Assembly: GCA_949130485.1 (NCBI GenBank)
Contig: OX422184.1
Coordinates: forward strand, 16,702,324 to 16,766,323
Direction of reading: 5' to 3'
Length of the DNA: 64,000 nucleotides
Source: Agelas oroides
Lineage: Eukaryota; Porifera; Demospongiae; Agelasida; Agelasidae
Both the position numbers and the translations under genes were made by a program. The notes under the pieces were generated by a model that was not told the DNA's origin, did no database searches, and was given only the letters and a program-made list of their open reading frames with translations. Of this stretch, positions 22,448-56,560 are shown one piece after another (within the stretch, counting starts at the first letter, position 1; the number at the start of each line of letters is the position of its first letter).

Positions 22448-23995
22448 ATGGATAAAGTGACTGCAACTGCAACAGTTTACCTGATTTTGTGTTGCTGTAT
22501 TGCTGCTGTATCTCAAAGTTATCGCAAAAATTTATCTATTTTACTTGTTACAGCTCCGAGCCCTGGACACGTAATAAAGATGGCGGCATTAGGTGAAGAG
22601 CTAGTTACGCGAGGACACAACGTTACTCTGAGCACCACGGAAAGAGAAGGATCTAAACTGCCTCAAAAACTTGCTGATGATTATGGAATGTCATATGTGA
22701 ATGCTGGTCCGGATGATCTCAATTCAGAAACTTTTATAAAGCATCAAAAAGCAGTACATGATAAAACAATCTATGGGAGTGTGCTGATATCTGCTCAAGT
22801 TATATACCCAGGTTGGGCTAACCACACTGCTGAAACACTTGATAACATCCTTCATAAAAATTGGGATGTAGTGGTTGTGGAACAATACATGTCTCCTACA
22901 TTTGCTTGCTATACTAAGAAATGGAAAATCCCCATGATTGTTCTTCACACTACCATTGATTTTCGCCTACATCACCTTCCTCCCTGGTCATATCCACTTT
23001 TTACCACAGGATATGCAGAAAATTTAAGTTTTATGGAACGTCTCATTTTAGTTTTCTATCGCTTTGCATTCTGCTACTTGGAAACTGTTTTTGTAAATGC
23101 ACAGTTGACACGTAGTGGTGATGAATGCACGTCAGAATACTATCATGCAGCTGCTGCAGGGGGTACAACAACACCCCTCATTGTCGGGACTGTGTTTGGG
23201 TTTGAATTTGCTCGACCTGTGCTGCCACTTATACACTATGTGGGGCCACTTGTGCCAAAATTGCAGGAAGCTTTACCAAATGATTTGCGAACCTGGTTAG
23301 ATATGAAGGACCCTAAGACTGTTGTCTACATCAGCATGGGTTCAACTGCATCCTTAACTCCAAGTATGGGAAAAGCTATACTTAATGGCATTTTGAGCAC
23401 AGAATATGATGCAGTGTGGAGTCTTCGTAAAAGCAATCGTGATATCTTGGAAGGGCTTACAATTAATACTAGTCGATTCTTCATATCAGAGTGGGTGCCT
23501 CAGCGCACACTGTTAAAAAGTGACAGACTTGCCATGTTTATTGGTCATGGTGGAATGGGTGGCATTACAGAAACTTTGCAAAATTCTCTTCCAGTCATTG
23601 CCATTCCATTTAATTTTGACCAGTGGGGTACTGCTGCACGGATTAAAGCTCAGGGGCTTGGAATTGTTTTAGACCGCCATCATCTCACTGCAAGTAACGT
23701 TGCAGCTGCAGTTGAAGCTCTTAGATCAACCAAATATATAGAAAAGGCAAAGAAAATGAGCAAGATTTTTAACAATGCGGGAGGGACTAAGAAAGCTGCA
23801 GAATTAGTTGAGTACTATGTAGAGGTCGGTTATGAACACCTGGTCTCAGGTTATTCAACTGAACACCAGTGGAATTGGATGGAGTTTTATAACATTGAAA
23901 CAGATGTATATGTATTAACCTTTCTGTCTCTGATCCCAGTTGTGTGTTGTTGCTTAAAATGTTTTTGCTCTCTTTGTAACATGGTAATCCATTAA
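22448..23995 (+). CDS. UDP-glycosyltransferase (UGT, GT1 family), membrane-anchored
   Basis: An intact intronless 515-residue protein of normal UGT length. It opens with a signal peptide (MDKVTATATVYLILCCCIAA), followed by the N-terminal acceptor-binding half with PSPGH; His41 sits where the catalytic base of GT1 enzymes lies. The C-terminal half has VVYISMGS (about 292-299), then SEWVPQ (347-352), GHGGMGGITE (366-375) and PFNFDQWG (387-394). These form the UDP-sugar-binding signature, with HGG and the terminal DQ pair intact. A hydrophobic Cys-rich stretch at about 486-515 is the expected C-terminal ER membrane anchor, although the tail lacks an obvious KKxx. It probably transfers a sugar from UDP-sugar to small lipophilic or xenobiotic acceptors in the ER lumen. 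Donor and substrate cannot be read from sequence. The lack of introns could mean retroposition, but single-exon GT1 genes are not rare. Confidence 0.93.
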   Translation: MDKVTATATVYLILCCCIAAVSQSYRKNLSILLVTAPSPGHVIKMAALGEELVTRGHNVTLSTTEREGSKLPQKLADDYGMSYVNAGPDDLNSETFIKHQKAVHDKTIYGSVLISAQVIYPGWANHTAETLDNILHKNWDVVVVEQYMSPTFACYTKKWKIPMIVLHTTIDFRLHHLPPWSYPLFTTGYAENLSFMERLILVFYRFAFCYLETVFVNAQLTRSGDECTSEYYHAAAAGGTTTPLIVGTVFGFEFARPVLPLIHYVGPLVPKLQEALPNDLRTWLDMKDPKTVVYISMGSTASLTPSMGKAILNGILSTEYDAVWSLRKSNRDILEGLTINTSRFFISEWVPQRTLLKSDRLAMFIGHGGMGGITETLQNSLPVIAIPFNFDQWGTAARIKAQGLGIVLDRHHLTASNVAAAVEALRSTKYIEKAKKMSKIFNNAGGTKKAAELVEYYVEVGYEHLVSGYSTEHQWNWMEFYNIETDVYVLTFLSLIPVVCCCLKCFCSLCNMVIH

Positions 23996-24580: not shown

Positions 24581-25320
24581 AGTTTTCTTGCTGCTGTTAT
24601 TGATACAGATGAGTAAGTAAATTTTAGGCTTAATTAATTATTGGATGGAGAGTTCATTTCACTCTGATACCTATAAAACCATGACAACCATGACAAGTAT
24701 AGCTTGGCAGTTTGTTTATTTCTGTTTTTCTGCTACATTTATTAAGCCACAAACTATATATTATATGAGTATACGTGGGTAAGTCTTGACAACAAATTGA
24801 TGTGATAAATCCGGTCCTTTGTTCTGCACACAGACAGCATTCTGTATAAGCATGCATCTATCATAAAATGTCATGGTTAACGGTCTGGTTGATTGGCATA
24901 TTATTTGGTAGATGCATGTTCCAGCTTTAGAGCAGTAGTAAAAGTTTTCTTGCTGCTGTTATTGATACAGATGAGTAAGTAAATTTTAGGCTTAATTAAT
25001 TATTGGATGGAGAGCTGATTTCACTCTGATACCTGTACAACCATGGCAACCATGACAAGTAGCTTGGCAGTTTGTTTGTTCTTTTTATTTCTTGTTGTTG
25101 TTTTTTTCTGCTACGTTTATTAAGCCACAAATTACTGATGTTGGTATACATGGGTAAGTCTTGACAACAACTTGATGTGATAAATCCGGTCCTTTGTTCT
25201 GCACACAGACAACATTCTGTATAAGCATGCATCTATCATAAAATGTCGTGGTTAACGGTCTGGTTGATTGGCATATTATTTGGTAGATGCATGTTCCAGC
25301 TTTAGAGCAATAGTAAAAGT
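24581..25320. repeat. Tandem duplication, about 365 bp x 2
   Basis: Copy 1 (24581-24942) and copy 2 (24943-25320) both begin agttttcttgctgctgttat and end ttccagctttagagca(g/a)tag. They are nearly identical apart from small indels, such as a 'ttcttgttgttg' expansion in copy 2. The minus strand has an open frame through copy 2 (25426 to 25085), but copy 1 has a stop at the matching place. Confidence 0.88.
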
Positions 25321-25426
25321 TTTTATGGCGTAAACGTTTTGCCTTTTCAGTCAGGTTACACTGATAGTTGTTGAAGATATCACCGACACGCATAGTGAAT
25401 TGAAGCCAGGTATTCCGCAAGACCAT
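25085..25426 (-). CDS. Uncertain 113-codon open frame over the tandem duplication
   Basis: The frame starts ATG at 25426 and contains several cysteines (YYCSKAGTCIYQIICQ, MLIQNVVCVQNKG). I do not recognise it. Half lies in a duplicated repeat whose sister copy is interrupted, so it may be only a chance frame or a remnant of a repeat-borne gene. Confidence 0.18.
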   Translation of the reverse strand: MVLRNTWLQFTMRVGDIFNNYQCNLTEKAKRLRHKNFYYCSKAGTCIYQIICQSTRPLTTTFYDRCMLIQNVVCVQNKGPDLSHQVVVKTYPCIPTSVICGLINVAEKNNNKK

Positions 25427-26462: not shown

Positions 26463-28630
26463 ATGGCTAAGGAGGTGCTAGTCAGCATGGGTGAGAATAC
26501 GCGAATAGTAACTTTCTCGATCCCCTCATCTTCAGAGCCAACACCTGTTGTCGATGTGGAAGGTCTAAAGCAAGCTATCCGAGTCACATTTGCAGACGTC
26601 TTGCAACCTGGTCAGGACTTTTTTCTGCAGATAAAAAGTGAGGAATGGAGAGGTGAATTTATTGACCTACTAGGTAATCAAAGGATTGCTGAAAAACCCG
26701 TCATCCGAGCTGTTGTGAAACCTGTGACTGAGGTAAGTCGCCTTTTGATTTTCTCCCTTGAGTATTATCATTCAGTTTATGGCTGCTGATATATGAGTAG
26801 ATTTGCAATGACTCGGCTTGCTACTTGACTTCATTACAGCAGACCGCACCAATTCCACAATATGGTGTTATGCCATCAAAAACTCAGCCAGCTGAGCCAT
26901 CTCAGCCAGTTCATGGAAATCAAACTGACAATCAGGTAGTGACAATGCATGATTGCAGTACAGTAAGATTAACTAGTGTGACATGATTGCTGTTCAGTCT
27001 TTGTTAAGCTAGTTTCTTTACATATTATGTTTGAGCTAGTGTATATATTCATTATAAGTTAGGCAAGTTCAAAAGAATGAATGTAGTGTTGAGGTCGTGG
27101 TTATCTTTATGCAGGTTGAAGATACCGAGCCCCTACCAAGGTGGGGACATTTGGCAGTTACACTTGGCTCTAAAGTGTATGTGTGGGGGGGTCAGGATTC
27201 AACCCTAGAAGATCGCAGATATCTTCGAGTGTTCGACATACACACAAAAAAGTGGCTAAAAAGAGAAACCATAGGAACTCCTCCAGAAGGCTTTGTCGCA
27301 TGTGCCTACACTCTCATAGGCAGTGTTCTGTACGTATTTGGTGGGTCAGATGGTTGTTCCTACTACAACGACGTCTATGAAATTGAACTCAGCAAAACTC
27401 TGGTATGGAAGAAGTGCAAAGTACAGAATCCAGATAAAGCTCCTATGAAAAAGCGCAGTACAGGAATGATAGCGAGAAAGACCAAAAATGGAAGCGATGA
27501 GCTTGTTGTGTTTGGGGGATATGGTGCACCACGTGATGATACTCTGCCAGGTAACAGCATTCATCGTACCAATGAAGTCCACACGTTCAATATTGAGAAA
27601 GGTTGGTCTATATACTATCTTACTAGGACCTATGATGCTGTCAATATAATATATTTTACCTCATCAGGAGAATGGTCTGCTCAGGATGTTACACATGGTA
27701 TTCCTATACCTGAGTGGGATAGCTTTACGATTACCAAAATTGATGATGAGCATGCTATAGTGTTTGCCGGCGTCCAGCAGGGTCCTGGTGCCATCAATGA
27801 TGTGTACTGTTTACAAATGAAGGATAGTCCTACTACAGATGATCCAGAATGGGTGAGCCAGAATGATATAGAAAAATGACATACTTATGTTTGTATGGTA
27901 AAATTCAGTTCCAAGGTTCTAGCTACTAGTGCAATGTTTTCTTACCATCATTTCAAATCATGGCATAAAAAGCTCCAACTTATCTTTTCATGTACAGTCA
28001 TGGGTCAAACTTGCAGTAACGGGAAAAAATGGTGTGCCATCTGCAAGAAGAGATCATGCAACCACTCCTTTGGGTACCGGGGAGAATCCACAACTGTTTA
28101 TGACTGGTGGCATTGATAAGAACTGGCGGTCGCTAGGTGATGCATGGATCCTTAATCTTGAGAGAGAGGCTGACGGAAAAATAAGCCGATGTTCTTGGGT
28201 CAAGGTGACAATTGCTGATATGAATAGCAGAATTCTAGCAGGCATAGACTTGGCCCTATCACTATACTACATAGGTACTTTCAAAGTATGCTGCCTTTTT
28301 TACGATATCTACACATCTCTCTGACTTCATTCCAGTTTGCAGGTCAACATCAAGATTTACAGATAAAGGATGCTGACAATGCCGAGCCTCTGACGCCGCG
28401 ATATTCCCTCACAGCAAACAAATTTGAAAACAGTGGATGCGAGCAGCAGTTACACCTGATGACATTTGGAGGAATAACATCTAAGGACTTGGTTCTTGCT
28501 GAAACAACAATTCTTACACTTGGTGAGCATAATTATTTCTACAGCAATACTTGTGTCTGATGAGTTAACTTGCACTATCCTTTTATTCATAGACTTCAAG
28601 GAAAAAGCCATGAGTGTTTACAGACCATGA
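26463..28630 (+). CDS. Kelch-propeller protein with N-terminal beta-grasp-like module
   Basis: Seven exons fit GT-AG rules and phase: 26463-26732, 26840-26935, 27115-27601, 27668-27852, 27998-28274, 28343-28522, 28593-28630, giving 510 residues. The ATG at 26463 is preceded in frame by TGA (26457-26459), which fixes the start. Residues 1-90 are the module (VLVSMGENTR…QPGQDFFLQI…FIDLLGNQ…) shared with the NLR gene downstream. Residues 91-122 are a Pro/Gln/Ser linker. Residues 123-505 hold six kelch-type blades, seen as VYVWGGQD, LYVFGGSDG, LVVFGGYG, AIVFAGVQQ, LFMTGGID and LMTFGGI. Kelch propellers bind protein partners; there is no BTB or F-box, so a ubiquitin-ligase adaptor role is not supported. 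The last exon encodes only a short tail. The acceptor chosen for exon 6 (tttgcag|GTC) is the one that keeps the frame. Confidence 0.88.
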
Positions 28631-28881
28631 GAAATTCAACTTGATTAATTCCAGACACTTACCACTATGAAGATTTTATTTTGCATTATCTAAGTGCATA
28701 TAGCTAGCTAGTCCCTACTGTGTCAGTGCACGTAACTGGACATTGGCAAATGTTTCTGAGCTGCAAAGTTTGTCAGATAATTTTGTTATGCTAAAAGGCG
28801 ACTTAAACACCACTGAGTCTTGCACCAGCATGCACAAGTAAGCTATATACATGTAACTAACAATTTGATGTTAATTTGTTT
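28631..28881. other. 3' flank of the kelch gene
   Basis: AT-rich sequence after the TGA stop, with no clear AATAAA close by and no gene seen. Confidence 0.4.
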
Positions 28882-30180
28882 TTGCGCATTTTCAGTGATG
28901 ATAATTAGGAAGCTCTCTCGTTGCATCCTGCTCAATGATAAAAAATATTTTATAAGCGTGGTGAAATTAGGCCATTGGGATGGTGGAATATCTCTAAGTG
29001 GTTGCATACTCTTGCTCTTATCCACTTAGTTGAAAGAACAGCATAAAAATCTGCTCAGATACTACCTGCATGTGGAGCATTAAGCGTACATATATATAAT
29101 ATTGTTCCCGAAGTAACTGCCAAGGTTCCTTTCGCTAGCCATTGTCTTACATGATCTTATACACATATACAGGTGCACCATGGGTCCTACAAAAGCAAAG
29201 CACAATGGAACAAATGCCTACATTCATGGTATGTTGTTATAATGGGAAAAAAATAAAACAAAAACGTGGCCCTCGATAGGATGACGCGGCAAAATTGAAA
29301 TATGCTTTCAGGAAATGTATGACTTGCCAGATAGCCCACATCACCGTATTCTACAAGCACAGTCCGAAGATCGCAGTAAATTTTTCATACTAGCTATGTC
29401 AGCGGTGAGCACCCAAAGTGAATGGAAAAATTTGCTTGTGGTGATCATGGTGAAAATGCGGAGTAGAGGAGAATACCAGGCAGCATTTATGTATTTATTA
29501 ATCGGTTTTGCATGCACGCTTGTTTGAGCTGCGTGTATGAGCGGATGTTCCTAAATACGGACGTCAGCGCTGTGACTGTGCTACGTGCACTAAGCGCGCG
29601 GTGATCAAAGAAATCGCCGCGGTTCACGTTAGCTCAGCTGGAAGAGAGAAGCAAACTTGCCCAAGTCCAATTTCTATTCATGAAAGAGCATGACAGTTAT
29701 ATTTACTGTGTTCATCATAGCTGCTCTGCGCAGAACAATTTAATTACAAGCATGACCACAGTGTGCATTGGTTGCTTGAAATTTTGTCCTTTCAAACACT
29801 CATGGTGAACTATTACCCATAATCTGTAAAAGGGGGAATTTTCTTTTGACTAGCCATTTGTTATCTGAGTTGCAGGTGAGTAAACACATTACATGCCATA
29901 TTACATGGTAACATGGTTATAAGAATACACATTACAGCAAACTACTGCATCAAACCCTGACAGTTACTCATCTGCATCAACCTGGCATTTTTTGGTGCAG
30001 ATAAGGAAAGTAGGAGTAATCTTTTTGGTCTGTTTTGACTAGCCATTTGTTATCTGAGTTGCAGGTGAGTGAACACATTACATGGCTGCACAGCTAAGTA
30101 TGTGATCAGATTACTGGCCATAATTATCTTTCCATCCAACCCTGACAGTCACTCATTTACATCATAGCAAACAAGCTATA
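28882..30180. repeat. 1.3-kb direct repeat, copy 1
   Basis: Begins ttgcgcattttcagtgatga and ends tagcaaacaagctata; 1299 bp. It is paired with 30376-31675. It contains short 'gagttgcaggtgagt(a/g)aaca' modules also found at 24.0-24.6 kb. No gene is recognisable; the open frame around 29315 is also broken in copy 2. Confidence 0.88.
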
Positions 30181-30375
30181 GACCTTTTTCAGGGGGTTTG
30201 GCTTCAAGGTTAGCGACCACTATTTATGTTGCCATGGTAACACCAATTTTATATGACAATCTTATAGTCCAACTGACTCAAATCTCAAATATGAAAGTTA
30301 TCCGCCTTATGGTTGATTTTAAACAAATTGTCAAACTTTGGCATTTAAGTATTGAGTTCTACGGTGAGTGGCAAC
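30181..30375 (+). mobile_element. MITE at the junction of the 1.3-kb duplication
   Basis: The segment carrying tttggcttcaaggttagc, gttgccatggtaacacc, ttatatgacaatcttatag, ctcaaatctcaaatatgaaa and ggtgagtggcaa reappears in reverse complement at about 56140-56360. Its pieces also occur near 38665-38705 and 14740-14800. It separates the two 1.3-kb copies exactly. Confidence 0.7.
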
Positions 30376-31675
30376 TTGCGCATTTTCAGTGATGATAATT
30401 AGGAAGCACTCTCTCGTTGCATCCTGCTCAATGATAAAAAATAATTTATAAGCAATGTGGTGAAATTAGGCCATTGGGATGGTGGAATATCTCTAAGTGG
30501 CTGCATGCTCTTGCTCTTATCCACTTAGTTGAAAGAACAGCATAAAAATCTGCTCAGACACTACCTGCATGCAGAGCGTTATAAGCGTACATATATATAT
30601 AAAAGTAAAATATCGTTACCGAAGTAACTACCGAGGTTGCTTTCGCTAGCCATTGTCTTACATGATCTTATACACATAATTATACATTTGCACCATGGGT
30701 CCTACAAAAGCAAAAGCACAATGTAACAAATGCCTACATTCACGGTGTGTTGTCATAATGCATAATGGTAGAATAAAAAGGTGGTCCTCGATAGGATGAC
30801 GCGGCAAAATTGAAATATGCTTTCAGGAAATGTATGACTTGTCAGATATAGCCCACATGACCGTATTCTACAAGCACAGTCCGAAGATCGCAGTAAATTT
30901 TTCATACCATGTCAGCGGTGAGTACCCAAAGTGAATGGAAAAATTTGCTTGTGGTGATCATGGTGAAAATGCAGAGTAGAGGAGAATACCAGGCAGCATT
31001 CATGCATTTATTAGTTGGTTTTGCATGCATGTTTGTTTGGTCCGTGTGTACGAGCATCCGCTCCTAAATTGCCCTGAATATGGACGTCAGCGCTGCGACT
31101 GAGCTACGTGCACTAAGCGTGCGGTGATCAAAGAAATCGCCGCAGTTCACGTTAGCTCAGCTGGAAGAGAGAAGCAAACTTGCCCAAGTCCAATTTTCTA
31201 TTCACGAAGGAGCATGACAGGTATATTTACTGTGTTCATCATAGCTGCCCTGCACAGAACAGTGTAATTGCATGCATGACTGCAATATGCGTTGGTTGCT
31301 TGAAATTTTTTTTTTGTCGTTTGAAACACTCATGGTGAACTATTATCGACTAGTCACTTGTTATCTGAGTTGCAGGTGAGTGAACATAGTAATAGTGATT
31401 AGAATTGCATGGTTATAAGAATACACATTACAGCAAACTACGTACTCTGATAGTTACTCATCTGCATCAACCTGGCATTTTTTGGTGCAGATAAGGAAAG
31501 TAGGAGTAAATATTTTGGTCTGTTTTGAATAGCCATTTGTTATCTGAGATGCAGGTGAGTGAACATATTACATGGCTGCACAGCTAAGTATGTGATCAGG
31601 TTACTGGCCAAAATTATCTTTCCATCCAACCCTGACTGTCACTCATTTACGTTATAGCAAACAAGCATAGCTATA
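30376..31675. repeat. 1.3-kb direct repeat, copy 2
   Basis: Same ends as copy 1 and almost the same length (1300 bp), with scattered substitutions and small indels. The divergence is spread evenly, so it looks like a simple tandem segmental duplication. Confidence 0.88.
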
Positions 31676-33351
31676 GAGGTAAGCGTGAAATTTGATGCAG
31701 GTGCGGTTGAAAATCACATATGCCATAAACATGTTTGATGAAGATGAGTGCAGGTATTAGTAAAGAGGTATAGGTCAGATTGAGAGATGCTATGACCAAA
31801 GATCAAATTACACAATCAGTCAATACAAGTAATACGATGATAAAAACATGCCTCATTTCGTAGTAGAAACTCCTGTTTGTGCTATTATTAATTGGTTCTC
31901 ATAAAATCAGAATGTCGCTGATTCATTCACAACTCATATATTGGGGGAATTTGAAAAAAAAATTACAACCAGCAAAATGTATCACAGATGGTGACGTCTT
32001 GTCACAAGACTACAAAATACAGACACTTGCGCATCTGAACAGCCAAAAGTTTGAAGCTCGGATGGTGAAGCCACTTAGTACAGGTTATGTAAACACTGTG
32101 GTTGCATGCCGAATACTGATTACATTTTATGTAAGTTAGAGAACATTGACACCCACGCAAACCAGAAACAGGAAATTAACTTCGTGTGGCCGTGCTGTCA
32201 CGTTTCGATTATACACTGGCTTGGGATCAAGAACGTGCAGCTGCCCATAAGCTTTGTCTCGAGAAAGGCAGGACTGAATTCAGGTCAGGGACGACTTATG
32301 TGTAGCTACATGGATGGCAATGAAAAATTGTACATAATTGCATTGCTGAACTTGATAATGTAATGAATGAAGTGCAGTCAGGTAACTATAATGTCTATAT
32401 GTCCCTTCGTTATGTGATTCTTTGTTATTTACAAACCATTTGCTAGATTTGAGTTGCTCATCGAATTCAGAAGTGTGACCAGTTGCAGCTTCTTGAAATG
32501 GCATTCTTGGAAGAATGTTAAATACCTGTTTAGGATTCTGAACTGAACTACTATAGAAATACTAAAGTCCAATTCTAGACTCAGTGATTCTAAGGACATA
32601 GATGGTCACCCAGATGTTAGCTTAATTAGATGTTATGACATTTAGTTATTGCATATTCCTACCATAATTACACACAGCGGTTTGTCTCATGCTTGTAGAT
32701 CTATATGGCATTAATCCTTTTGTACATGAATGGCTAGCTCATGTTGGATTTAACAAGTTTGTTTACACCACATTTGACCAGAGTAAGCAAGCTCTGGAAG
32801 CAATTAAGCTCTTTAGTTCCAAGGTGACTTGAGTATGAATAAAGTATCCAAGACTAGTTAGTCTACCATGTCAAAAGACCAACAGGTTTGGAGGAGCCAG
32901 TAAGGCTCTCAAAACTCTTCCAAAGTACATCTCTCTTAGAAGTGAGTCATCAATGTCTACAGTGCTAGCCATAGACATTTCAACTGCTATTTGCAAATTA
33001 TGTTACCAGTAAGCCTGACACAACATAGCACATGCCATTGGAATGTACTAACAAAAAACATTGATTAGATTGCAGACATGAAGTCATGCCAATATTAGGT
33101 TGTAGACCGATAAACGTTTTAGTACTATGCTACTGTTCAAGTGATAAATGCTGACATGAAGTCTGCTATATAAGTATAATCATCAATCTGTCTGGTTACA
33201 TTCAAATTGTAATGAGTTTGCTTCTACGCGCACAACACTGCAGCACTCAAAAATCTGTCAGGCAAGACTATATATACTCCCAAGACAAATCTAACCTCGT
33301 CACTAGAATTATATGTCCGTGCAAGTGAGCCTAGTTGGATGGTTGAGGTAG
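31676..33351. other. Intergenic, no gene recognised
   Basis: AT-rich sequence. A short open frame at 31879-32139 and another at 32106-32363 have no recognisable domain and no supporting splice structure. Confidence 0.4.
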
Positions 33352-33361
33352 CTACATAGGT

Positions 33362-33437
33362 TAGCCTCGTACCCAGGCCACGTGGGAGGACGGAAAAGCA
33401 CTTTTCCCTCCTCCCACGTGGCCTGTGTATGAGGCTA
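33362..33437. mobile_element. 76-bp foldback element with 10-bp target-site duplication
   Basis: The arms tagcctcgtacccaggccac and gtggcctgtgtatgaggcta are inverted copies and continue through gtgggagg/cctcccac. The element is flanked by ctacataggt on both sides (33352-33361 and 33438-33447). The long TSD and all-TIR structure suggest a Mutator-like foldback. Confidence 0.85.
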
Positions 33438-33699
33438 CTACATAGGTATACCAGTATTAGCATTGGAACTTGTACCACTTCTAACTGGACCAACATACTC
33501 TACAACAGTATTGTATGTAGACTGTGTACCTCCACAAAGAGAAAGAGCTTGCCTCAACCGTTTTTGGACATAGCGTTCAGTAGAACATTTAGCGCTGTCA
33601 GTTTGCTATAAGTGCAAATGTAAATGAATAACTTATTGGCGACACAGCTAGCGCGCGGCGCCCAGGAGCCGGCTTTCCGCAAACGATGAATATATTCTT

Positions 33700-33834
33700 T
33701 TTTTTTAAGTATATAAGGCCGGTGACACGCAAATTTACCGCAGTTTCACCGCGCAGGCACAGGAAGTGCCAGTCAAGCCCCGGGAACGGTGGACCGTGAA
33801 TACAACGAAACAACTTCAACCGAGCATTTAGTGA
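33700..33834 (+). promoter_or_regulatory. Candidate TATA promoter and untranslated first exon
   Basis: A tatataag box (33711-33718) in GC-rich surroundings is followed about 115 bp later by a strong donor, CATTTA|GTGAGT (33829-33836). No ATG opens a long frame between them. It could be the start of the NLR transcript, whose first coding exon lies 4.2 kb downstream behind an acceptor-like site. This link is inference. Confidence 0.3.
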
Positions 33835-33837
33835 GTT

Positions 33838-36163
33838 GTTTTGTTATTTTAAACGGGATCATCTGTTGCAATAACTCGGCTCGTAATTTTTATTTGATTT
33901 TCTCTATATACATACAGCCATGGCACCTGATTTTAGCAGGTAGTAGTCATACAAAACCATTAGGGTTTTTATCGCCTCCTGCGCTAAATTTTAGGCTTGC
34001 AGTACGTATTTAAGTGCATGACGCTGCCGATATAGTTGTGACTGCGTGCGCGAAGCGCTCCAAACAAACATATCGACGTCGAAGAAAACGAAATTCAGTG
34101 GCCATAATTGCCTCAAATCTTGACTATCCCAGAACAACATTTTTGTATGCCATTCATTCAGATTCTTTTCACAGCGTTTGCTGCTTACATCGCCCGGGGT
34201 TATTGTTATACTTCTTTCGTTGTGTTGCTACTGTATTTTTTTTTTGCATTGAATAACTGCAGGAGTTGCATGAATAGCAACTCCGTTTTTTATTTATTTT
34301 TTCTTCTTTTGCTCGTTCAAGGCTAACCCTATCCCAAGTGGAAAGAAAACGTATTTCAATATAGTCGCACATCCAAACATGTATGTAGGCTAAACCAAAG
34401 AAGTCTTATGCTGAAGCCACTCAGTGCAATTACTAAGCAAGTACTGTGGTTGGCTACATGCTAAATGCAAAGTTTTAACAACTGTGTGCACCGAATGATG
34501 TGGACTTTATTTTCTTCTCTCGAGTAGTATTTCTTGTGTCGATCCCCGATAAGTATTGCTGAATGGCGCCACGGTATGTAAGTTCTGTTGTGTTGTTACA
34601 GCGTTGCACATCTTTATTCGACAAAATTTGCAAAAAAAATATTTTTTTTTTGTATTGTGTGAGTTTACCATTCTCTGCATGTATGTAGGTAAGCGCTCTA
34701 GACAAACACGTCAACGTTGAGAAGCTGCCAGTTAAAATTAATTCCGGTAGCCAGAATTGCCTAAATCGGGTTTCATTACGCTCCGTCAACACATGTCCAT
34801 GCCTGCCATTCCAGTGTAAAAGGTGCTGCAGCATCAATGCATCATGGAGGGGATTGAGAAGAAAGTCTGATTTACATACTGCTATGTTTTTGCTCATTGT
34901 ATGAGTATATACTTATGGCGTCAGTCTCGAAGAGCCGCATGATAAACGTAAGGACGAGAGACGTGCTCTGCGAATGCAAGCAAAGTTTTCCTAGCTAGTG
35001 TTTATGCATAGGCCACTATTTGTTGCATATTAGTTTCTCATCCCCCGCCCGCATACTTTTTTGGCGACTCGCTTCGCCGGCCATTGTTGTATGTTTTATC
35101 GATCCCGTGCTCTGTACGCGTCGATGCTACTGATTTACATGTTGATTTACTACTCAGCGTATTGAAAAACAGCTAAGAGATGTCTCCCTCCCTAACATAT
35201 CGGAGCGCTTACTCCCAGACGTCACTTCTTTCACGGGGAGCGTGGTCTCGCGAGTCCAGGAGCCGATTTTTTTTTTTGCGGTTAGCGAATAGTGGTATAA
35301 TGGTAGTGGCCGCCCGCCCGCCCGCACAAAATTTAGAGAAAGTTCCTGATGAGAAATAAAAATTGTGCCCTTAGTATGACATACATTGCAATTCTTTTGT
35401 ATTTTGTCATTTATTTATTTGTTTATTTTTGTATTTCTGCACCCATAGCCTCGTCCCCAGGCCCCGCCCGAGAAATCGGGAAAGTCACACTTGCAAAAAT
35501 TCCCGTATGTGCTGTGTCAGCAGTCTTCGTTTGGAGTAGACGAATCACGGGGGAGGGTGGGGGGTGGTGTTTGCACGGGGATTAGTAGGCCCGCTCGATC
35601 CTCGGTCACTTCGCCTCTGTATGTCAGTTCACCAGTACAGTACTCCTTGTGCACGGGCTACAGTACATTAGCAACGGAGCCAGAATCTCTACGGCTAGTC
35701 TGAGTACATACAGCCTCAAAACTACATTAGGATTTAACATGACTGTCGGAAAAGTTCAAGGAAATAGCACAATGTCATATAATTATTGGACTCATATTGG
35801 CTTCATAGCTATTGTTTCTTGGAAACTACTGAGGTCTCTCACAAGGCTTGCTAACATTTGCAGTAGTTTATTTAATATGGTGTTGCTCGTGATGTGTGTA
35901 ATATCTTTGGACAATGCCAAATTCCGAACTGTTGTTTATGGTAGTCCAATCTTGAGCTGTCAATTGCATGTTACCATGTATGCCTCACATATCTCTGTTG
36001 CCATGTATCACTGCAGTTCATACCTTAGTTGCTACTGTACCTAGCCAACTATAAAAAGGCTGTGATCTTTATTGTATGCAGTCACCATTGAAATTCTGAA
36101 TTGCTGCTATCACTATGGTGGAAACTGCTGTGGTGAATATCGGCCACAGTAGTCGGTAGCGTG
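33838..36163. other. Intergenic, no gene recognised
   Basis: AT-rich with GC-rich patches. Low-complexity sequence includes (cccg)n at 35311-35327 and poly-T near 35267-35278. A minus-strand frame of 140 codons at 34475-34897 has no domain-like content. Confidence 0.4.
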
Positions 36164-36168
36164 CAATG

Positions 36169-36546
36169 CAAGGGCGTAGCTAGGATTTATTGAGTGAGGA
36201 GGCAATACCTTGCCGCGCGCGGCGAAAATTTTGCTAATTAATTATTCATAACTTAACTAAACAAGGCGCACTTTGTTAAAGGTACGTAAATGTACAAAAT
36301 ATAAGTTACCTTTCCTTCCACGCTTTGTAAAGAAAGTCGTTATCAATGCTGCTGGTCTTTTCCCAACCATGAGGTCTCTATTTATAGTGCGGGTGACATC
36401 TGTCATAGTGATGTAATTTACTTCGCGCATGCATGCGCTAGTTTTATATGATATCGCGGTGATTATCGCCAATGCGTGTGCGCGTTCTTGCACAGAAAAG
36501 TGAGGAGGCAACTGCCTCCTCTGTCTCATTGCTAGTTACGTCCCTG
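36169..36546. mobile_element. CAAGG…CCCTG MITE with 5-bp TSD
   Basis: Terminal repeats caagggcgtagctag / ctagttacgtccctg are inverted with few mismatches. The element is flanked by caatg on both sides (36164-36168 and 36547-36551). It contains internal gaggaggcaa/ttgcctcctc-like words and no coding sequence. The ends resemble hAT termini but the TSD is 5 bp. Confidence 0.75.
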
Positions 36547-36730
36547 CAATGTATTCTTAGCTGCACTGAGGATACAACATTGTGTAAGTAGAGAACAAAA
36601 CATTCCAGCCTTAAAATATTTCCAGTGCGAGTCCGCGAGTCCTCAAGTTCGCAGTCCACAGAACACTAATATAGAGTGATTTCTAAATTCTTGTGTTTGC
36701 CTTGTATATGCCATTTCTCCTCTCACTCGC

Positions 36731-36748
36731 TCACACACACACACACTA
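36731..36748. repeat. (CA)n microsatellite
   Basis: A short run of alternating CA after ctcactcgct. Confidence 0.9.
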
Positions 36749-38072
36749 GGTTATCCTGACATTGATTGTGACAAGCACACCCATGACAGTGCTTATCATA
36801 GGTGGTGAAAGCATTAATGCCCAGATGACTTACCGTTAGTCACGGAAATTCAGTAAAAAAGCTGCCATGGAAGAGCAAGACACAGTAAGGTTACATGCAG
36901 TCTATATCAGACCACAGCAGTAATGTCACACCACTGCAATCCCACACTTGCACTGAGTGAGGGATTAACACTCAGGATAGCTTGTACGTAACGGAAGGTT
37001 CATTTAGTAAATCTCTGCATCAGATTTATGTATGGAATGTAGGGTATATGTGCTTTGTTGCTGAAACTATATAGATGAAATACAAAGGACACTAACCTGA
37101 ATATCTGTCCAATGTTAAATTAGCATTGAACTGTAGAGCATTCTAGCTGAGGTAAATCTGAAGCACTAAACTCTAGGTTCTGCAATCACCTTGATATGTG
37201 GTTTAGACTTCATTGTTTAGAGAGAGACTTGTTGGAGTTGTAGCTAGCTGTGAAGGGATAATTTAGTAGACAGATCAGCCAGAGGACAATTAATGAGAAA
37301 TTGTAAACATTATTACGATAAAAATGTAAAAAGATGTTCATAGGGAATGCATGCCAACAAGTATGCAAACAAGGTAGGGATGATGTTAAAGTGATGGTAA
37401 ATATATGAAGGCCCACTGAATCCCTGCATTTTTCTCACTGAGAACCATCCTGGAAGACAAGTGTCAGCACACAGTTGAATTGCAAAAGCATGTGCTAGTG
37501 CTAACATGTGTAACTTGGCTTCAGTCTAGAAGCAGTGACAGGGAGTAGGTTTGTGGACATACGTAGATCCCTAGCCTAGAGGTGCACATGAGCAGGAAAA
37601 AAGATACTAGTTTTGTGAGTAGAGCTTTCTGAAAGTTTTAGTAGGTTTCAGTGGGGGGTGAATTTGTCTTGAAAACCAACATAGCCAAATTGCTGTTTTT
37701 GAAGTCGAATATGTAGACTAGTGGTCCCACGACAAATCTATATGTAAAATTTTCACTTGTTTTGTGTGTGTGTTAATGATGTGGTCTGACTGTGGGTGGA
37801 ACCTTGAGAGGAATGGGAAAATTTTCATTTTAGTGGAGGGAATAACAATTGAGTTTTTGACATTTTCAGGTAGAGAGAGGGAGCAGCTAGTTTGGTACAA
37901 ACATTTTGCGTACACTTTGACTTTGTCCATTTAGCTATCGAAGGTTTTTATATGTTATGTGTCTGTGCCATTCCTACATAGAGAGTCTATCAACTCTCTG
38001 ATACATGTACAGTTGTAGAGACATGTGCTCATTGTTATAGTCTCTTGAATTTTAATTCTGTGGATTGTGCAG
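36749..38072. other. 5' flank of the NLR gene, no further exon recognised
   Basis: AT-rich sequence up to an acceptor-like ggattgtgcag ending at 38072. An upstream first exon is likely but could not be placed with certainty. Confidence 0.4.
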
Positions 38073-41000
38073 GTCCAAAAAATGATGAAGACAGTGTTAG
38101 TCACCATGGGTGAAAACACACGTCCTGTATCCTTCACACCTTCATTGTCAGCAGCAGCTGTTACTGATGATACAAATGCTCTGGAACAAGCTATTCAAGT
38201 CAAATTTAAAGATATTTTGCAACCTGGCCAGGAGTTCTTTATGCAACTAGAGAGTGATGAATGGGGAGGTAAATTCCTTGATGTGCTGGGTAACCAAAAG
38301 GTTGCTGATCGATCAGTTGTGAAGGTTGTTATGAAGCCCATAAGTCACGTAAGTTGATCAGATCTGTGAGTTTTCCTGGCTAAATAATATTATGCTGTAT
38401 TACACATGCAGTATGAGTAGCTACGTGTCGTTTAAATCAGTCATTTTTAAACTTTTGCGTGGAAATTGGTACTTGCTCATATAGTTTGAGACATGTACCT
38501 TATCCATTTCTAGATCACAGCACATCGTAATAATAAAAAGTTAGCTATTACGGATTAGTTATGAAACAGTTACAGACTTCCGGTAAAAAGCAACGGAGAA
38601 CCTTATGCCTTGCCTAGCATGTTTGGTATTTTGAAGCTCATCACCAAAGTACAAGCTGCATGGTATCACTATGGCAACATTTTAAATCCAAAGCCACGCC
38701 CCCTGGAGTCTAGAGGCACATGGTCTATGGCTACCAATCTAAGACTTGCATTGGGCCTTTGACAACTCGCCAACATTGGAGTGTCATTCGAGAGCCGATA
38801 TTTTTTAAGGCTTTCCGCACTTGGTGATAAAAGGGAGAAACCCCTTCTCCCACATTCGCACTCACCCCCCATGTACCAGCCCTCCATTTTCGAAAAATTC
38901 TGGATCCGCCCCTGATACAGCGCAGTGAACTGCAAAGAAATTTCTATGAGTTGTGATTAGATTATTAGTGCACTTTACCGCAATGTTACTGATCTCTTTC
39001 TGGTGGACTACTTTATATATGTAGGTCAGCAAATTGGAAAAAGTGGTGCTAGTCAGCATGGGTGAACATAAGCGACCTGTAAAGTTTTCAACAGTGATCA
39101 CTGATAAGAAAGCTCTGACACAAGCTGTTGAAGTCACATTTGACGATATTTTGCAACCTGGCGAGGAGTTCTTTTTGCAGCTAGAGAGTGAGAAATGGGG
39201 AGGCACATTTGTTGACCTGCTGGGTAGCCAAGAGGTTGCTGATCGATCAGTTGTTAAAGCTGTAATAAAATCTGTGAATAAGGTAAGTCATTGATTTTGT
39301 GTAGCTATGTGTTTTCAGTTAGCTAACCTAATTCTAAACTTTAGCCCAAGATGCGCGAAGTGATCACAAGTATCAAGTGACCACAGAGTATAACATCAAA
39401 GCATTTTATTACCCACTAGCCTCATTCCCAGGCCCATTACCTTTGCACAGTAGCATGTCAGCATTTTGTTGAACCAGCATGGTGTATGCATATACATATC
39501 CACAAACAGAAGCCAGACAAAATAAAATTAATCAAACCGAGTAAATGTCAAGTAAAAACCATAACATAATTTTGGCAACTGTGGATCTGTGTACATGATT
39601 ATTCATTTCTAGTAGAATAAGAAGACAATTAAGTTCTATCTGCACAAAAACAAGCATGTGCATGCCAAAATAATAGTACTACAATATTTTTGATTAGCAA
39701 ATTCCACCATTTCTATAGTCTGATGCTGTACTATCACAAGCCCAGCCAACCAAGCCATCCCAGGCCGTTAAAAATGACAACCAGGTACAGAGCATGATTT
39801 TGAATATTTAGATTGCATGGTCATTCCTGAAATTGAAGGTGTTACATGTTAAACTCATTGTGTTTTTCTTCAACAATGTAGGGAGCCAGTACAGTCACAT
39901 TGACACAATCAAGTTCAATCTGCCATGAAACAATGGAATTTCCTTTACCTTCTGAGGTAAAGAAAGTAAATCTGAGTTTGCATCTACATGTGTATATATT
40001 ATGCTTTTTGAGCAACTGTAGATCATAGCCTGGTTCCCAGGCTCCTCCCTCTCTGGAGTAGGGGCATGGGGACAAGGCTACTGTGTATTGGAATATTGTT
40101 GTGTGATATCATGTCAACATAATAATGTGTGCAACAGAAGCTTGCTTCCAGATTCTATTATGTTTTACTAGCAGCTACAATGTACAACACGTTATGATTG
40201 GCAGCCCACATCTTTTCTACAGCCTGGAGTTGTGCCATCACAAGCTCAACCAACCCAGCCAAGTCAGGAAATTAAAAATGACAACCAGGTACAGTACATA
40301 ACATTGGAAAAGTAGATTGCGAAATTATTCATGAAATTGAAAGTGTGACATATTGATTTCGGGGTTTGTTGTTCTACAATGTAGGAAGCCAGTGCATTCA
40401 AAATGGAAAAATCAGATTTCTCAAGTTCAACCAGTGATGAAACAATGGAACTTGCTTTACCTTCTGAGGTAAGAGAACTACTGTAGACCAAAATAAGGAA
40501 GTGATCTGCCATAGCATACTCAGGATTCCAAAGATATTCAGGCACAGTATGGGTGCACTGATTTTGTGAGAGCTCCTGCACAAAGCACAGTCTGGAAGCA
40601 GGCTGCCTTAAATTTTAGAGCCTCCCAGATCAAGGCTGTAGACAAGTGGGTGCTTGGGGGTGCTGAAGCACCCCCAAATTTTTGGCATTTGTATTTGAAG
40701 GATATAGCACATAGCCACAGCACACAACTGCTTATGATGTGTAGTGAAAGTTAGCACCCCCAACTAAAAAAACTTGTCTACGGCCCTGCAGATTGGCTCT
40801 GAAACTATTTAGGCCACTGCCATCGATCTCTCAAGACACTTTTGCCATATTTTTGATGGTATGTGTACATGCAGTATCTTCCCACCAAATAGATGATAAG
40901 TAAGTGAACAACCGCAGTGACAGATTGGTGAATGTGGAAGCACTAGTTCAATCACGCAATCGTTGAGATTACTTTTACCCGGGCACCAGCACAATCCACC

Positions 41001-44000
41001 AGGGCATCAGCTTGTATGAGCTCTGTTTAGTGCTATCATGTGTGTACTTGCTGCAGTAATGAGCTCTGAGCTACCTAGACATGCTTCTATATATGCCTTG
41101 CCTTTGCAATCCACATATCTACCCTTAATGAAGTATGCACCCCTTCTTGCAGCAGGGAAGCCTGGCAATGTGGCTAGCTTTTTAAGATAACTACTACATG
41201 TTGGCAATTGTACTAGTCTATTATATAGCTTCTATACATTAGTTTCAGCTCATAATTTAATCTATTTTCTCTCACTTAAAATGATGTAGGTACTGCTTGA
41301 AGATACAAGCTATGAACTACGTCTGTGCTCAAAGCTAGATCTTAGGACTGTACTAGAAACTCTATTTGAAGCTCGAACAAACTGGTACAACATTGGTCTC
41401 CAGTTAGGATTATCTGAAGCAGATTTAGCTGCTATTGAGGCTGAAAATAGTATGCTACAAGATCGTCTTCGTGCAGCACTTGCAAAGTGGCTCAGAGGAG
41501 TTAACCAAGATTCAAAGCCAACTTGGAAAAGATTGGTAGATGCCCTTAGAAGCCCGACTGTGAAGGAGAACCAGTTAGCAGAGTTTGTTGAAGAGAAATA
41601 CTGCAATGTGGGGGAAAATCAAGTAGCTAGAGTGAACTACTCTGATTATCTCAGACACCTGTATCGAGACTTTGCACCTGTACGAATGCTCCAATGGCCC
41701 AAGTTACCTCACTATGAGTTTGTCTCACTTGCTATGATCAAACGAGAAAAGCTTGTGCAGGGAATAACTGACAAATTTGTTGAACTCACTCTTCATGGAT
41801 GTAGCGACGATATCAAACAACAAAAAGAAGAGATTGATTTAAAAAGCATTTTTGACAAAATCGAGGCAGCACACAAAGTAATTCTACTTGAAGGAGCACC
41901 TGGAGCAGGAAAAACAATGTTGATCTGGCACATCTGTCATGAGTGGGGAAGAAAGAAACTTTTTTCTCAGTATTCTATAATCGTTCTTGCTACATTACGT
42001 GATCCTGAAGTTCAGAAAGCAAAATCGATTACTGATGTGCTCGCACTTACTTGTGAAAATCGAAGGGATGCAGAGAAGGTGGCTGCAAGAATGAGAGCAT
42101 GCCATGGTAGAAACATCCTTTTTCTACTTGATGGGTGGGATGAGCTTCCAGAAGAACAGCGAAAATCTAAAGCATTCCTCTTCAGTGAACTCATTGAGAA
42201 GCCTGTAAAGCATTCTCTGGATGAAGCTGCCATCATTGTTACTTCTCGCCCAGTGTCTTCTGGTGACTTGCGACCCTTTGCATCATCAAGAATTGAGATT
42301 GTTGGTTTTATAGCTTCTAAAATCAAAGAGTATTTCGAAACTTGTCTCAAGTCTGAAGAGGGACAAGCTGGAGCACTTGATACACTGCTTCAAATTGTGG
42401 AAGATAACCCACTTATTGAAAGCATATGCTATTTGCCTCTAAATGCTGCGATTGTTGTTTATCTCTTCTGTGCTTGTGGCTATACTCTACCAAGCACCTA
42501 CCATGAACTCTTTCAGTTACTTGTCTACCACTGCATTCTTCGTCATATCGAAAGAAGTAACCTAAAGATAACATTAAGTCAACACCAACGTCCCTCTTTT
42601 GACGACTTTCCTGAGGAGATCAGGATACCATTTGAACAAGTCTGTAAACTGGCATATCTCGCTTCAAGAAAGAATGTGATTACTTTCTCATCTGCTACTC
42701 TTTGTGACGATTTTAGGGTCGCAGAACCTCTGAACCATTTAGGACTAATGCAAACTGTTAAGAGCTTGCTTATACATGGTGAAGGAACAACATACCACTT
42801 CCTGCATCTATCTCTTCAAGAACTCCTGGCTGCATATCACATTTCCAAAATGCCACCAGATAGTCAGCTCAGAGTGTTTAATGAAATGCGTAATGAACCT
42901 CGGTTTAGTGCTGTTTTTGGATTCTACGCAGGGTTCACTAAACTTCAAAATAAGGAAATTCGAGATGTTGTAGCTGAAATTGTGCAAACAGGAAAAAAGT
43001 CTGCAGATAAGACTCTTTTGGTATCTCTGATGAATTGGCTTTATGAGGCTCAGGACCTAGAATTGTGTCACTTTGTTCAAGGAGAGCTAACCAGAGACCA
43101 GAGTGAGAAGCTAAATGAGGGAAATGGAGTACTAAATCTTAGTTACACAAGTCTCAAACCATCTGACACACTGTCAGTTGGATACTTCATGTCCACTGTG
43201 AAGACCGAAAGTGGAATGCATTTCTGCGTAGATCTTTCTTACTGCTCACTTAAAGATCACCATGCAAAGTTCCTAGTTAAAGGATTATCACACAATCAAC
43301 CAACAACTACACCATGTGTTAAAATAAACTTGTCCTCAAACAGCATGGACACAGAGGGAATAAACCACATTGCCGAATTTTTAAAGGAATCACAATTAAT
43401 CCAAGCACTCAACCTTAGGAAAAATAGACTCACTCATTCTCGACTTTTGAAAGCCTTAACGAATAACTCATCACTTATCGAACTTGATATATTTCAATGT
43501 TCACTTACAGCAGAAGCTGGAGAGTCATTAACAGCTATGCTAGCAAACAACCACTCACTGCAGTGTCTAGACATCAGCTACTCTAGAATACCTCTTGAAT
43601 GTATTGCAGAAGGCCTGATACAAAACAGTGCATGCAAACTCAAAACACTTCATGTGATCTACTGTAATTATACAGTTGAGGGAATGAGACAGATTTCAGA
43701 AGCAATAAAATTATGTCATCTTGAAGAACTGTCAGTTGGTCCACTACTTGATGACTGTATGGAACCATTAGGAAATGCATTAATAACCTTACGATCTCTA
43801 TCATTGAGAGGAGAGCAAGTCACTAACCAAGGATTGGAAATATTTGGTGAAGCCTTGCAAGAAAACAATTCCCTGCACAAGTTACGCCTACAAGATTTCC
43901 ACAAGGTAACCAGTGTAGGTCTTAAAAGACTAGGAGAACAAATAGAAAGCAACCAAAAACTTGAGGTGCTATCAATGAAAAACTTCATAGGCAGTACCAT

Positions 44001-44151
44001 AACTGATGGGCTGAAAAATTTAGTAATGTGCTTGAAACAGAATTCGACTCTTAAAATATTGCAACTCTCAGAAGATCAAGTAGCAGAGATCAAAGAAACC
44101 GTATGTAACATCAACAAAAATAGAAACGATCCATTGAAACTGGAATCCTAA
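38073..44151 (+). CDS. NLR-type receptor: two beta-grasp-like modules, linker, Death, NACHT, LRR
   Basis: Seven exons, all starting and ending in phase 0: 38073-38348, 39025-39282, 39719-39784, 39882-39956, 40223-40288, 40385-40468, 41290-44151. From ATG 38082 the protein has 1225 residues. Residues 1-89 and 90-175 are two copies of the module also found in the kelch protein. Residues 176-272 are two pairs of short linker exons. A Death domain follows at about 288-377 (NWYNIGLQLGLSEADL…AKWLRG). The NACHT ATPase has the P-loop EGAPGAGKT (473-481), Walker B ILFLLDGWDEL (548-558), VTSRP (about 589-593) and the helical motif HLSLQELLAAYH near 774. About eleven ribonuclease-inhibitor-type LRRs run from about 885 to the end. 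It is probably a cytosolic immune sensor signalling through Death contacts. The start is uncertain: the frame is open back to the acceptor at 38072, so an upstream coding exon is possible. Confidence 0.92.
38665..38921. mobile_element. MITE remnants in NLR intron 1
   Basis: A piece of the family seen at 30181 (tatggcaacattttaaatcc … gccacgccccctgga) is followed by a hAT-like right end, cgaaaaattctggatccgcc + cctg at 38890-38913. The minus-strand frame over it reads GADPEFFENGG, a translation that hAT MITEs commonly yield, so it is not a gene. Confidence 0.55.
40025..40080. mobile_element. Small TAGCC foldback remnant in NLR intron
   Basis: tagcctggttcccaggctcc and its imperfect inverse …gggacaaggcta bracket about 56 bp. 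Same family as 33362; no clear target duplication. Confidence 0.5.
40631..40788. mobile_element. CAAGG…CCCTG MITE with 5-bp TSD in NLR intron 6
   Basis: Ends caaggctgtagacaagt / acttgtctacggccctg are inverted. Flanks are cagat on both sides (40626-40630 and 40789-40793). Interior hairpin gggggtgctgaagcaccccc. 158 bp, non-coding. Confidence 0.8.
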
Positions 44152-56458: not shown

Positions 56459-56560
56459 GTAGCTTCCAATCTCATTTCCGTTCTCAATCCACTGCTTTTT
56501 ATGCTTCGCCATAAGAAGCCTAGCTCTTCGTGAAGCGATAGCGTCAGCGATGTACGACAT
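56459..56560 (-). CDS. Possible divergent first exon overlapping the TM-Death gene
   Basis: On the minus strand an ATG at 56560-56558 opens 34 codons (MSYIADAIASRR…QWIENGNEIGSY). They run exactly to a consensus donor GTAAGT (minus-strand GT at 56458-56457), phase 0. Composition is basic and helical, plausible as real protein. No downstream exon was found to the left, where a MITE lies at 56125-56365. Its start codon is 8 bp inside the neighbouring plus-strand CDS. Confidence 0.4.

Follow-up and report, generated by a model that had tools for sequence, protein, structure and literature searches.

The window analysed here, a 64,000-nt stretch of Agelas oroides contig OX422184.1 with coordinates counted from its first letter, holds two neighbouring plus-strand genes that share a protein module of 86-90 aa, encoded by one exon apiece. 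In the upstream, kelch gene the module (M1, 26463..26732, 90 aa) forms the first coding exon, whose ATG follows an in-frame TGA and which ends at a GTAAGT donor. A Pro/Gln-rich linker exon of 32 aa (26840..26935) and two propeller exons placed by their splice sites (27115..27601 and 27668..27852) follow, both within 27115-27876, which matches the Pfam family Kelch_KLHDC2_KLHL20_DRC7 (E = 2.4e-29); a further coding stretch is predicted at 27998..28214, with a provisional 3′ end, there being no GT donor at 28215. The downstream, NLR-like gene begins with two modules, M2 (exon 1, 38082..38348, 89 aa, GTAAGT donor) and M3 (exon 2, 39025..39282, 86 aa, AG acceptor and GTAAGT donor, phase 0 on both sides). 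Next come the linker exons E3 (39719..39784, 22 aa) and E4 (39882..39956, 25 aa), their respective repeats E5 (40223..40288, 22 aa) and E6 (40385..40468, 28 aa), and a single exon of 953 aa (41290..44151) that encodes Death, NACHT and a C-terminal LRR-like part. Pfam supports NACHT (E = 1.1e-21) and, N-terminal to it, Death (E = 1.6e-5; score 25.4 bits, cut-off 22.6). The initial annotation had proposed a Death-NACHT-LRR receptor adjoining a co-oriented kelch gene; Death, NACHT, adjacency and orientation were all borne out, but no LRR family was matched in Pfam at E <= 5, and the neighbouring paralog L058, 65% identical to the window Death-NACHT gene, has an LRR_1 match (E = 0.018) that falls below cut-off.

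The exons of both genes were predicted from splice consensus sites and open frames, and the last intron of the NLR gene is 821 bp long, so that M2 and M3 might in principle form a separate short gene outside the Death-NACHT protein. We consider such a gene-model artefact quite improbable, since all seven exons are divisible by 3, join to 1225 aa with no internal stop and have AG/GT at every internal border.

The three modules are homologous (50-57% identity), their previously proposed positions proved exact, and the motifs quoted for them are present. M1 and M3 are 50% identical over 90 aa (BLASTP pair E = 8e-32), M2 and M3 57%, and M1 and M2 52-53%. The linkers are also related: the kelch linker exon is homologous to those of the NLR gene and nearest to E5 (tblastn with E5 as query, 4.7e-4; score reached by 0 of 5000 E5 shuffles). 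Because the linker exon is common to both genes, it is the 5′ cassette that was duplicated and not the domain alone, and the sharing between the two genes thus shows, first of all, exon duplication. A local duplication might have given the Death-NACHT gene its cassette by neutral exon shuffling, leaving the kelch and NLR proteins functionally unlinked. The duplication of linker exons together with the module is what such shuffling would produce, and decaying copies occur elsewhere in the genome (the kelch copy L056 is frameshifted, and exon copies on C6 and C9 are broken). We nevertheless regard this account as fairly unlikely, given that open frames are kept across the called exons of both window genes and that dN/dS is 0.29-0.50 in six of six pairs among M1, M2, M3 and the C22 copy L004. 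These ratios mean that the four modules evolve as protein, under purifying selection.

Fold and conserved residues of the module

The AlphaFold2 model of M3 was confident (pLDDT 86.5, pTM 0.75) and comprises five strands and one helix (DSSP: E4-12, E15-23, H28-38, E47-55, E61-64, E76-83), in the order beta-beta-alpha-beta-beta-beta found in the ubiquitin-like beta-grasp superfamily. A Foldseek search with this model returned 1076 matches, only one of which reached E <= 0.001: the top-ranked UBL of USP11 (E = 7.3e-4, TMq 0.66). USP11 or USP15 UBL entries account for eight more of the best 50, and other leading entries are plexin RBD, FERM-F1, the PB1 of AtNBR1 (rank 5) and the DIX domains of Dvl2 (rank 7) and Ccd1 (rank 10). 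Altogether, 42 of the best 50 of the 1076 matches are UBL, RBD, PB1, DIX, FERM or SUMO entries, which we take to belong to this fold class. The beta-grasp fold that had been suggested from pattern is thus what the model shows, with UBL, plexin RBD, PB1 and DIX among its top matches; the predicted strands and main helix are present, but the additional short helix is absent from the DSSP assignment. A closer likeness to PB1 or CIDE-N had also been suggested, and this was upheld only in that PB1 occurs among the Foldseek matches, as both families failed in profile comparison. The hhalign probability was 16.9%, out of register, against four PB1 sequences and 0.6%, over 11 columns, against three CIDE-N sequences; CIDE-N was absent from the best 50 of the 1076 Foldseek matches.

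Searches of Pfam and of PDB sequences with the module gave no match to a described family. For 20 module rows, PB1 was not among the Pfam matches at E <= 5, and DIX had no Pfam match. Single-row Pfam matches to Calx-beta (0.035), DUF6175 (0.073), DUF5393, HTH_Crp_2 and GHL15 were judged to be chance, as were ten partial PDB sequence matches (E = 0.065-1.7) and a match of two of the three modules to NCBIfam AmcE (E = 0.00086 and 0.053; scores of 19.4 and 13.6 bits where the cut-off is 140). No relative of M3 was confirmed in the bacterial/archaeal and viral collections. Taken together, the model and these searches suggest that the module is an apparently unnamed sequence family inside the ubiquitin-like beta-grasp fold. 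Among the alignment rows that reach each position, K6 in strand 1 and R17 in strand 2 are both conserved in 14 of 14, and the turn between strands 3 and 4 carries an acidic residue (E/D) at position 56 (14 of 15) and W58 (15 of 15).

Genomic distribution and carriage by transposons

The module had been noted on the kelch gene and the NLR; both occurrences are real, but it is not confined to these genes. Among the matches listed in our genome searches it occurs at 26 distinct places, 17 of which had E < 0.01 in at least one search. This count excludes C1:10796334 (E = 3.4) as chance and includes C1:24114353, C11:4302357, C7:7593157 and C7:8707120 (E = 0.06-0.36), which are known from table rows only. 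With carriers assigned at places with defined surroundings (leaving out C22:4511170, C2:9705555, C22:2453111, C6 and C9), most other copies lie inside DNA transposons, and every definable carrier that is neither kelch nor NLR is a DNA transposon or, at L045 and L047, a putative one. Presence in kelch genes is patchy (two of the six closest loci): among the limited candidate lists scored genome-wide, there was no module match at four kelch loci that are 76-81% identical to the window kelch exon (C2:16782028, 16996834, 17019865 and 17043167). The same searches, together with further comparisons, gave none at the NLR paralog L058.

The first kind of carrier is a DNA transposon by its inverted termini and target duplications. 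Its ends read TGC(R)(S)(Y)TATCA, a pattern with 681 matches in the genome (reversed control, 0), and it encodes a DDE-like/PHD protein. The module lies within terminal inverted repeats at L048, L049, L050, L053 and L057, 3-bp duplications flank five of five elements with both ends read (TAG, TAA, TAA, TAA and TTA), and at L055 identical termini are found on either side (C1:4749519 and C1:4761146). The module is the first coding exon found in this element, 170-240 bp from the left end in six of six cases. L048 is an internally deleted copy that matches the full-length element L057 at 99.8% identity over 925 bp, and a third copy, L040, which keeps its left end and stops within the module, shows 98.5% identity over 263 bp. 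The DDE-like core of the copies is 62-73% identical to L057 and less divergent than the remainder. Its conserved blocks NRDDA, VDGA.DEGP and NRVELQNG make the protein a candidate RNase H-like DDE transposase; the AlphaFold2 model of its DDE-like region reached a pLDDT of only 39. These results point to a family of DNA transposons that encodes a PHD finger, gives no Pfam transposase match and has hundreds of termini in one genome.

The second kind, a putative DNA transposon, is represented by L045, between 171-bp inverted repeats (85% matched), and L047, between 254-bp inverted repeats (90% matched), which have the end TATGGCACGCC and coding exons in common, the module being an N-terminal exon. 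No clean target duplication and no transposase were found at these two loci. L045 encodes a HECT domain (E = 3.9e-8); no HECT match was found in L047, so that a single HECT carrier is known. Kelch propellers are common substrate adaptors, and this HECT carrier, the kelch carrier and the lead of USP11/USP15 among the Foldseek matches would all suit a monomeric ubiquitin-like adaptor that works with ubiquitin ligases and does not self-assemble. We think this unlikely: the related element L047 is without a HECT match, DDE-like/PHD and Death-NACHT proteins carry the module as well, and the aligned rows show no Gly-Gly tail, the last strand of the module leading into linker exons.

The window genes themselves do not appear to be transposon cargo. 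No end of either element kind was found nearby, so that these genes show no sign of having been captured; the sole end-like resemblance is a lone one-mismatch match at 13681 on the minus strand. Eight inverted pairs of 24-37 nt occur within 22000-48000, and those flanking the kelch gene (26027/35446 and 26163/33770) and the NLR gene (36810/44229), at 25-30 nt and 80-84% matched, are too weak to call.

Transposons often take up host exons, and the module may accordingly be an old N-terminal interaction domain of kelch and other host genes that was captured by two transposon kinds, for example to exploit host partners. Apart from the commonness of such uptake, the carriers at C22:4511170 and C2:9705555 could be ordinary genes, which would fit this direction. 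The module tree does not decide the matter, since none of its 11 inner branches is well supported (host rows group in 66% of bootstrap trees). On the other side, the module lies 2.7-6.2 kb upstream of six of eight long DDE-like matches, whose long ORFs are 41-53% identical to one another, which indicates that it is old in these elements, and its presence in kelch genes is patchy. We regard the reverse direction as possible, if somewhat doubtful, and infer that capture ran from transposons into host genes.

A proposed association module and its relation to known systems

The homology of the modules, their in-frame exon structure and their carriage by transposons are established. From these we propose, as on balance the probable reading, a mobile-element-associated beta-grasp association module and a cassette shuffled between kelch and Death-NACHT genes. 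The module would be a detachable N-terminal association domain, many copies of which ride DNA transposons. One lineage, in the form of a cassette made up of the module exon and the Pro/Gln-rich linker exon, would have been added to the kelch gene. The Death-NACHT gene, about 11.6 kb downstream, has a related cassette with a doubled module, doubled linkers and phase 0 at every border. Self-association may be front to back, as in PB1 or DIX domains, by way of the basic pair (strand-1 Lys and strand-2 Arg) and of the acidic residue and Trp of the strand 3-4 turn. Through its tandem modules, NACHT-driven oligomers of the NLR might recruit other module proteins, or be recruited by them, in a homotypic assembly that could link the kelch and NLR proteins. 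The earlier suggestion that these two proteins act as sensors for a single assembly is hypothetical. A far more speculative and very improbable extension is that the NLR is an intracellular sensor of transposon proteins, with the module as an integrated bait that recognises the protein of an active element by homotypic contact and NACHT/Death signalling that removes or silences the cell. If true, an animal NLR would be defending the genome through a domain captured from transposons, with the same domain on the neighbouring kelch protein.

PB1 and DIX domains also have the beta-grasp fold and form front-to-back polymers, and the module resembles them in strand/helix order, in Foldseek matches and in its presence on unrelated proteins. 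PB1 has a strand-1 Lys and an acidic OPCA turn, to which the basic strand-1/strand-2 pair and acidic turn of the module may correspond; unlike PB1 and DIX, the module model has no helix after the acidic turn. CIDE-N shares the beta-grasp order with the module, and in both a hydrophobic strand comes after an acidic turn. In titles and abstract openings of the open-licence literature we found no description of such a module, a weak negative.

Fusions of transposases with host genes are known, such as KRAB or Pogo fusions. An F-box protein with a Tc1/mariner HTH is another example (PMC12062965, where a term search gave zero occurrences). The present case is similar in that a domain is common to mobile elements and multicopy host families, but differs in that the common part is an N-terminal beta-grasp domain and not the DNA-binding part, and in that the direction of transfer is presumptive. 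Sponge NLRs, including NLRX, NLRC and NLRD of Dysidea avara and those of Amphimedon, combine Death and NACHT, with some clustering (PMC12909245), and the window gene has the same architecture. Numbers of 135 in Amphimedon (PMC6208332) and 126 in Dysidea (PMC12909245) have been given. The N-terminal domains named there are CARD, DEATH and unspecified others, and kelch, ubiquitin-like and transpos* have zero occurrences in the main text of that article (PMC12909245). If our reading is right, an apparently unnamed beta-grasp family moves between DNA transposons of two kinds and host genes, a Death-NACHT immune gene among the latter, and could supply sponge NLRs with new N-terminal domains. In plant BED-NLRs, an extra, usually N-terminal NLR domain is also found in transposase-like proteins (PMC7761493); BED is a DNA-binding zinc finger, whereas here a beta-grasp module lies on an animal-type Death-NACHT gene with no known resistance function. 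On our reading, plant NLRs that carry transposase-related domains would have a concrete counterpart in an animal, and receptors of innate immunity would have a testable means of watching mobile elements.

The module and its predicted fold in adjacent kelch and NLR genes

Three copies of an 86-90-aa module lie in the window exactly where the initial annotation placed them, one in the kelch gene (M1, 26463-26732) and two in the Death-NACHT ("NLR") gene (M2, 38082-38348; M3, 39025-39282), with pairwise identities of 50-57%. Across these three and the copy on contig C22, dN/dS was 0.29-0.50 in all six pairs. Counted over the alignment rows that reach each position, conserved residues are K6 (14/14), R17 (14/14), Q52 (16/17), an acid at 56 (14/15) and W58 (15/15). 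Pfam assigned 20 module rows to no family, returning isolated chance-level matches only, and we found no description of the module in the open-licence literature searched. Ten partial PDB sequence matches (E 0.065-1.7) were regarded as chance.

The module had been proposed to be beta-grasp-like, resembling PB1 or CIDE-N. The fold class is borne out by prediction: the AlphaFold2 model of M3 (20 rows; pLDDT 86.5, pTM 0.75) has predicted elements E4-12, E15-23, H28-38, E47-55, E61-64 and E76-83, the beta-grasp order, and Foldseek against the PDB matched it to the USP11 UBL at E 7.3e-4 (1 of 1076 matches had E <= 0.001). Plexin A4 RBD, AtNBR1 PB1, Dvl2 and Ccd1 DIX, FERM lobes, Raf RBD and SUMO also matched, such ubiquitin-like or beta-grasp entries making up 42 of the 50 best rows of 1076. 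Sequence-profile comparison supported membership of neither PB1 (16.9%) nor CIDE-N (0.6%).

The kelch gene opens with M1, followed by a 32-aa Pro/Gln-rich exon and the propeller (Pfam Kelch, E 2.4e-29). The NLR gene runs from the successive exons M2 and M3 through four short linkers that form two repeated pairs (E3 39719-39784, E4 39882-39956, E5 40223-40288, E6 40385-40468) to a single exon with both Death (E 1.6e-5) and NACHT (E 1.1e-21) by Pfam, which recognised no LRRs in this ORF. Splice sites of both models were inferred from sequence; all seven NLR exons are multiples of three and, joined, encode 1225 aa with no internal stop. The kelch linker matched E5 at a tblastn E of 4.7e-4, a score reached by none of 5000 shuffles, and its score against E3 was reached by one of 5000. 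By these scores the linkers of the kelch and NLR genes are homologues, so the two genes have a common 5' cassette, ~11.6 kb apart.

Several other features were seen in the window. An ORF between two NLR genes (56463-57089) has a Death domain (E 2.8e-10) and, by eye, a hydrophobic segment that is likely membrane. Located 3' of the kelch gene is a long direct repeat (28890-31240), in which ~28890-29700 recurs at ~30370-31240; a 517-aa ORF (22442-23995) resembles a UDP-glycosyltransferase by eye, and a 375-bp unit stands in tandem at 24581-25323 (2.0 copies, 89% matches).

Carriers of the module across the genome

The window occupies C2:16702324-16766323 in a genome of 259 Mb and 141 contigs, consistent in gene content with a sponge. 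Four protein searches of this genome, combined, found the module at 26 distinct places, with C1:10796334 (E 3.4) excluded as chance; 17 of them, including the window's own three, had E < 0.01 in at least one search. Among the 23 outside the window, ~10 kb of surroundings were examined for 14, ~3 kb for C2:10307480 and 561 bases for the copy on C12, the remaining seven being known as search matches alone. Most other copies with a definable carrier are on mobile elements, recognised by ends and content (L045, L047, L048, L049, L050, L053, L055 and L057); against these stands one decayed kelch copy, and five more examined places have no defined carrier. The putative reading of the initial annotation, in which two sensors feed one assembly, is therefore incomplete. 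C6 and C9 hold broken copies, whose similarity begins ~1 base before the start codon and ends ~25 bases beyond the donor site; this suggests that the module exon was duplicated as a unit. The two broken exons are 88.7% identical over 309 bp, the similarity stopping near the exon borders, as an exon-sized duplication.

One kind of element has, at its ends, inverted repeats of the form TGC(R)(S)(Y)TATCA, a pattern with 681 genome matches (reversed control, 0), and those listed include several close inverted pairs, as short non-autonomous copies give. Duplications of 3 bp were present in all five elements with both ends read (TAG in L048, TTA in L057, TAA in L049, L050 and L053). The full-length L057 element (L057:551-9206, minus strand; 8.66 kb) and the internally deleted L048 (1.76 kb) have both ends in common and show 99.8% identity across 925 bp; L040 is a truncated third copy. 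Behind the module, L050, L053, L055 and L057 each have an NCD2-like/coiled-coil ORF and, after that, a long ORF in which DDE-like blocks are conserved. A domain scan of the L057, L055 and L050 ORFs scored NCD2 at E 1.1e-8, 2.4e-5 (slightly short of the cut-off) and 0.0058, respectively. A PHD finger lies in the long ORF of L057 (E 5.5e-7) and L050 (E 2.7e-6); that of L055 stops ahead of the PHD part, and L053 has a PHD-like pattern in a separate ORF. Pfam matched no transposase in this family, and AlphaFold2 modelled its DDE-like region at low confidence (pLDDT 39), so the putative transposase is called from ends, duplications, copy pattern and motifs. With its 3-bp duplications, NCD2-like and PHD proteins and DDE-like motifs, the family may represent an unclassified superfamily.

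Inverted repeats of 171 bp and 254 bp, with the common end TATGGCACGCC, enclose L045 and L047, two related loci that have several coding exons in common but lack clean target duplications. A HECT domain was recognised in L045 (E 3.9e-8) and none in L047. To our knowledge no HECT-bearing DNA transposon has been described, and a literature search found no matching paper.

Proposed origin and working of the cassette

On the simplest account, and the most likely, the module serves DNA transposon proteins as an N-terminal association domain and is detachable. Together with a linker exon, one lineage of it would have joined a kelch gene, and this cassette would later have been shared with the Death-NACHT gene. 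The DDE-like region has 26 genome matches, eight of them long, whose long ORFs are 41-53% identical among themselves and 62-73% to L057 in the core. The module's presence 2.7-6.2 kb upstream of six of these eight long copies, together with its patchiness in kelch genes, speaks for a transposon origin; C2:9881495 (six stops) and C2:15743107 had no upstream module among the listed matches.

The module was found in two of the six closest kelch loci. A degenerate, frameshifted copy of the kelch gene at C2:16975677 (~81-89% DNA identity across longer pieces) retains it, and four more loci, with 76-81% identity to the kelch exon of the window, gave no module match in the four genome protein searches. 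The window kelch exon has 77 genome matches, 46 on C7, many at 9.2-9.55 Mb and ~10 kb apart. On C7 a full-length module-bearing element (~9409250-9417905) lies ~2 kb from a member of this array (9419944-9420342), in opposite orientation, a present-day case of the module adjoining a kelch gene. The next NLR, a second Death-NACHT gene just downstream (L058:2065-4899, window ~66065 onward), is 65% identical to the window NLR; its Death match falls short of the cut-off, module and linkers gave chance-level matches at best, and no recognisable copy of either lies upstream.

The direction, from transposon to host, is the weakest step, because no inner branch of the module tree is well supported. Neither kind of transposon end was found near the window genes, apart from a single one-mismatch resemblance at 13681; both genes are flanked by weak inverted pairs of 25-30 nt.

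Homotypic assembly of module proteins is a tentative proposal that we hold to be rather less than probable; it draws on the fold class, conserved charges, the NLR tandem and use on unrelated proteins. Bipolar PB1 domains rely on two basic residues in strands 1-2 together with an acidic one in the turn between strands 3 and 4, and by analogy modules might contact one another front to back, with their own basic pair set against the acidic turn. The module may instead be a ubiquitin-like adaptor, as one HECT context, one kelch context and the UBL as top Foldseek match would favour. Neutral shuffling of the module cassette is a further rival account.

Among N-terminal domains, a survey of Dysidea NLRs names, in its relevant passages, CARD, DEATH and unspecified others (PMC12909245). 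The nearest known design is that of plant BED-NLRs, which, as portrayed in passages of one account, combine an NLR with an integrated domain also found in transposase-like proteins (PMC7761493); here too, to that extent, an NLR carries an extra domain common to transposon proteins.
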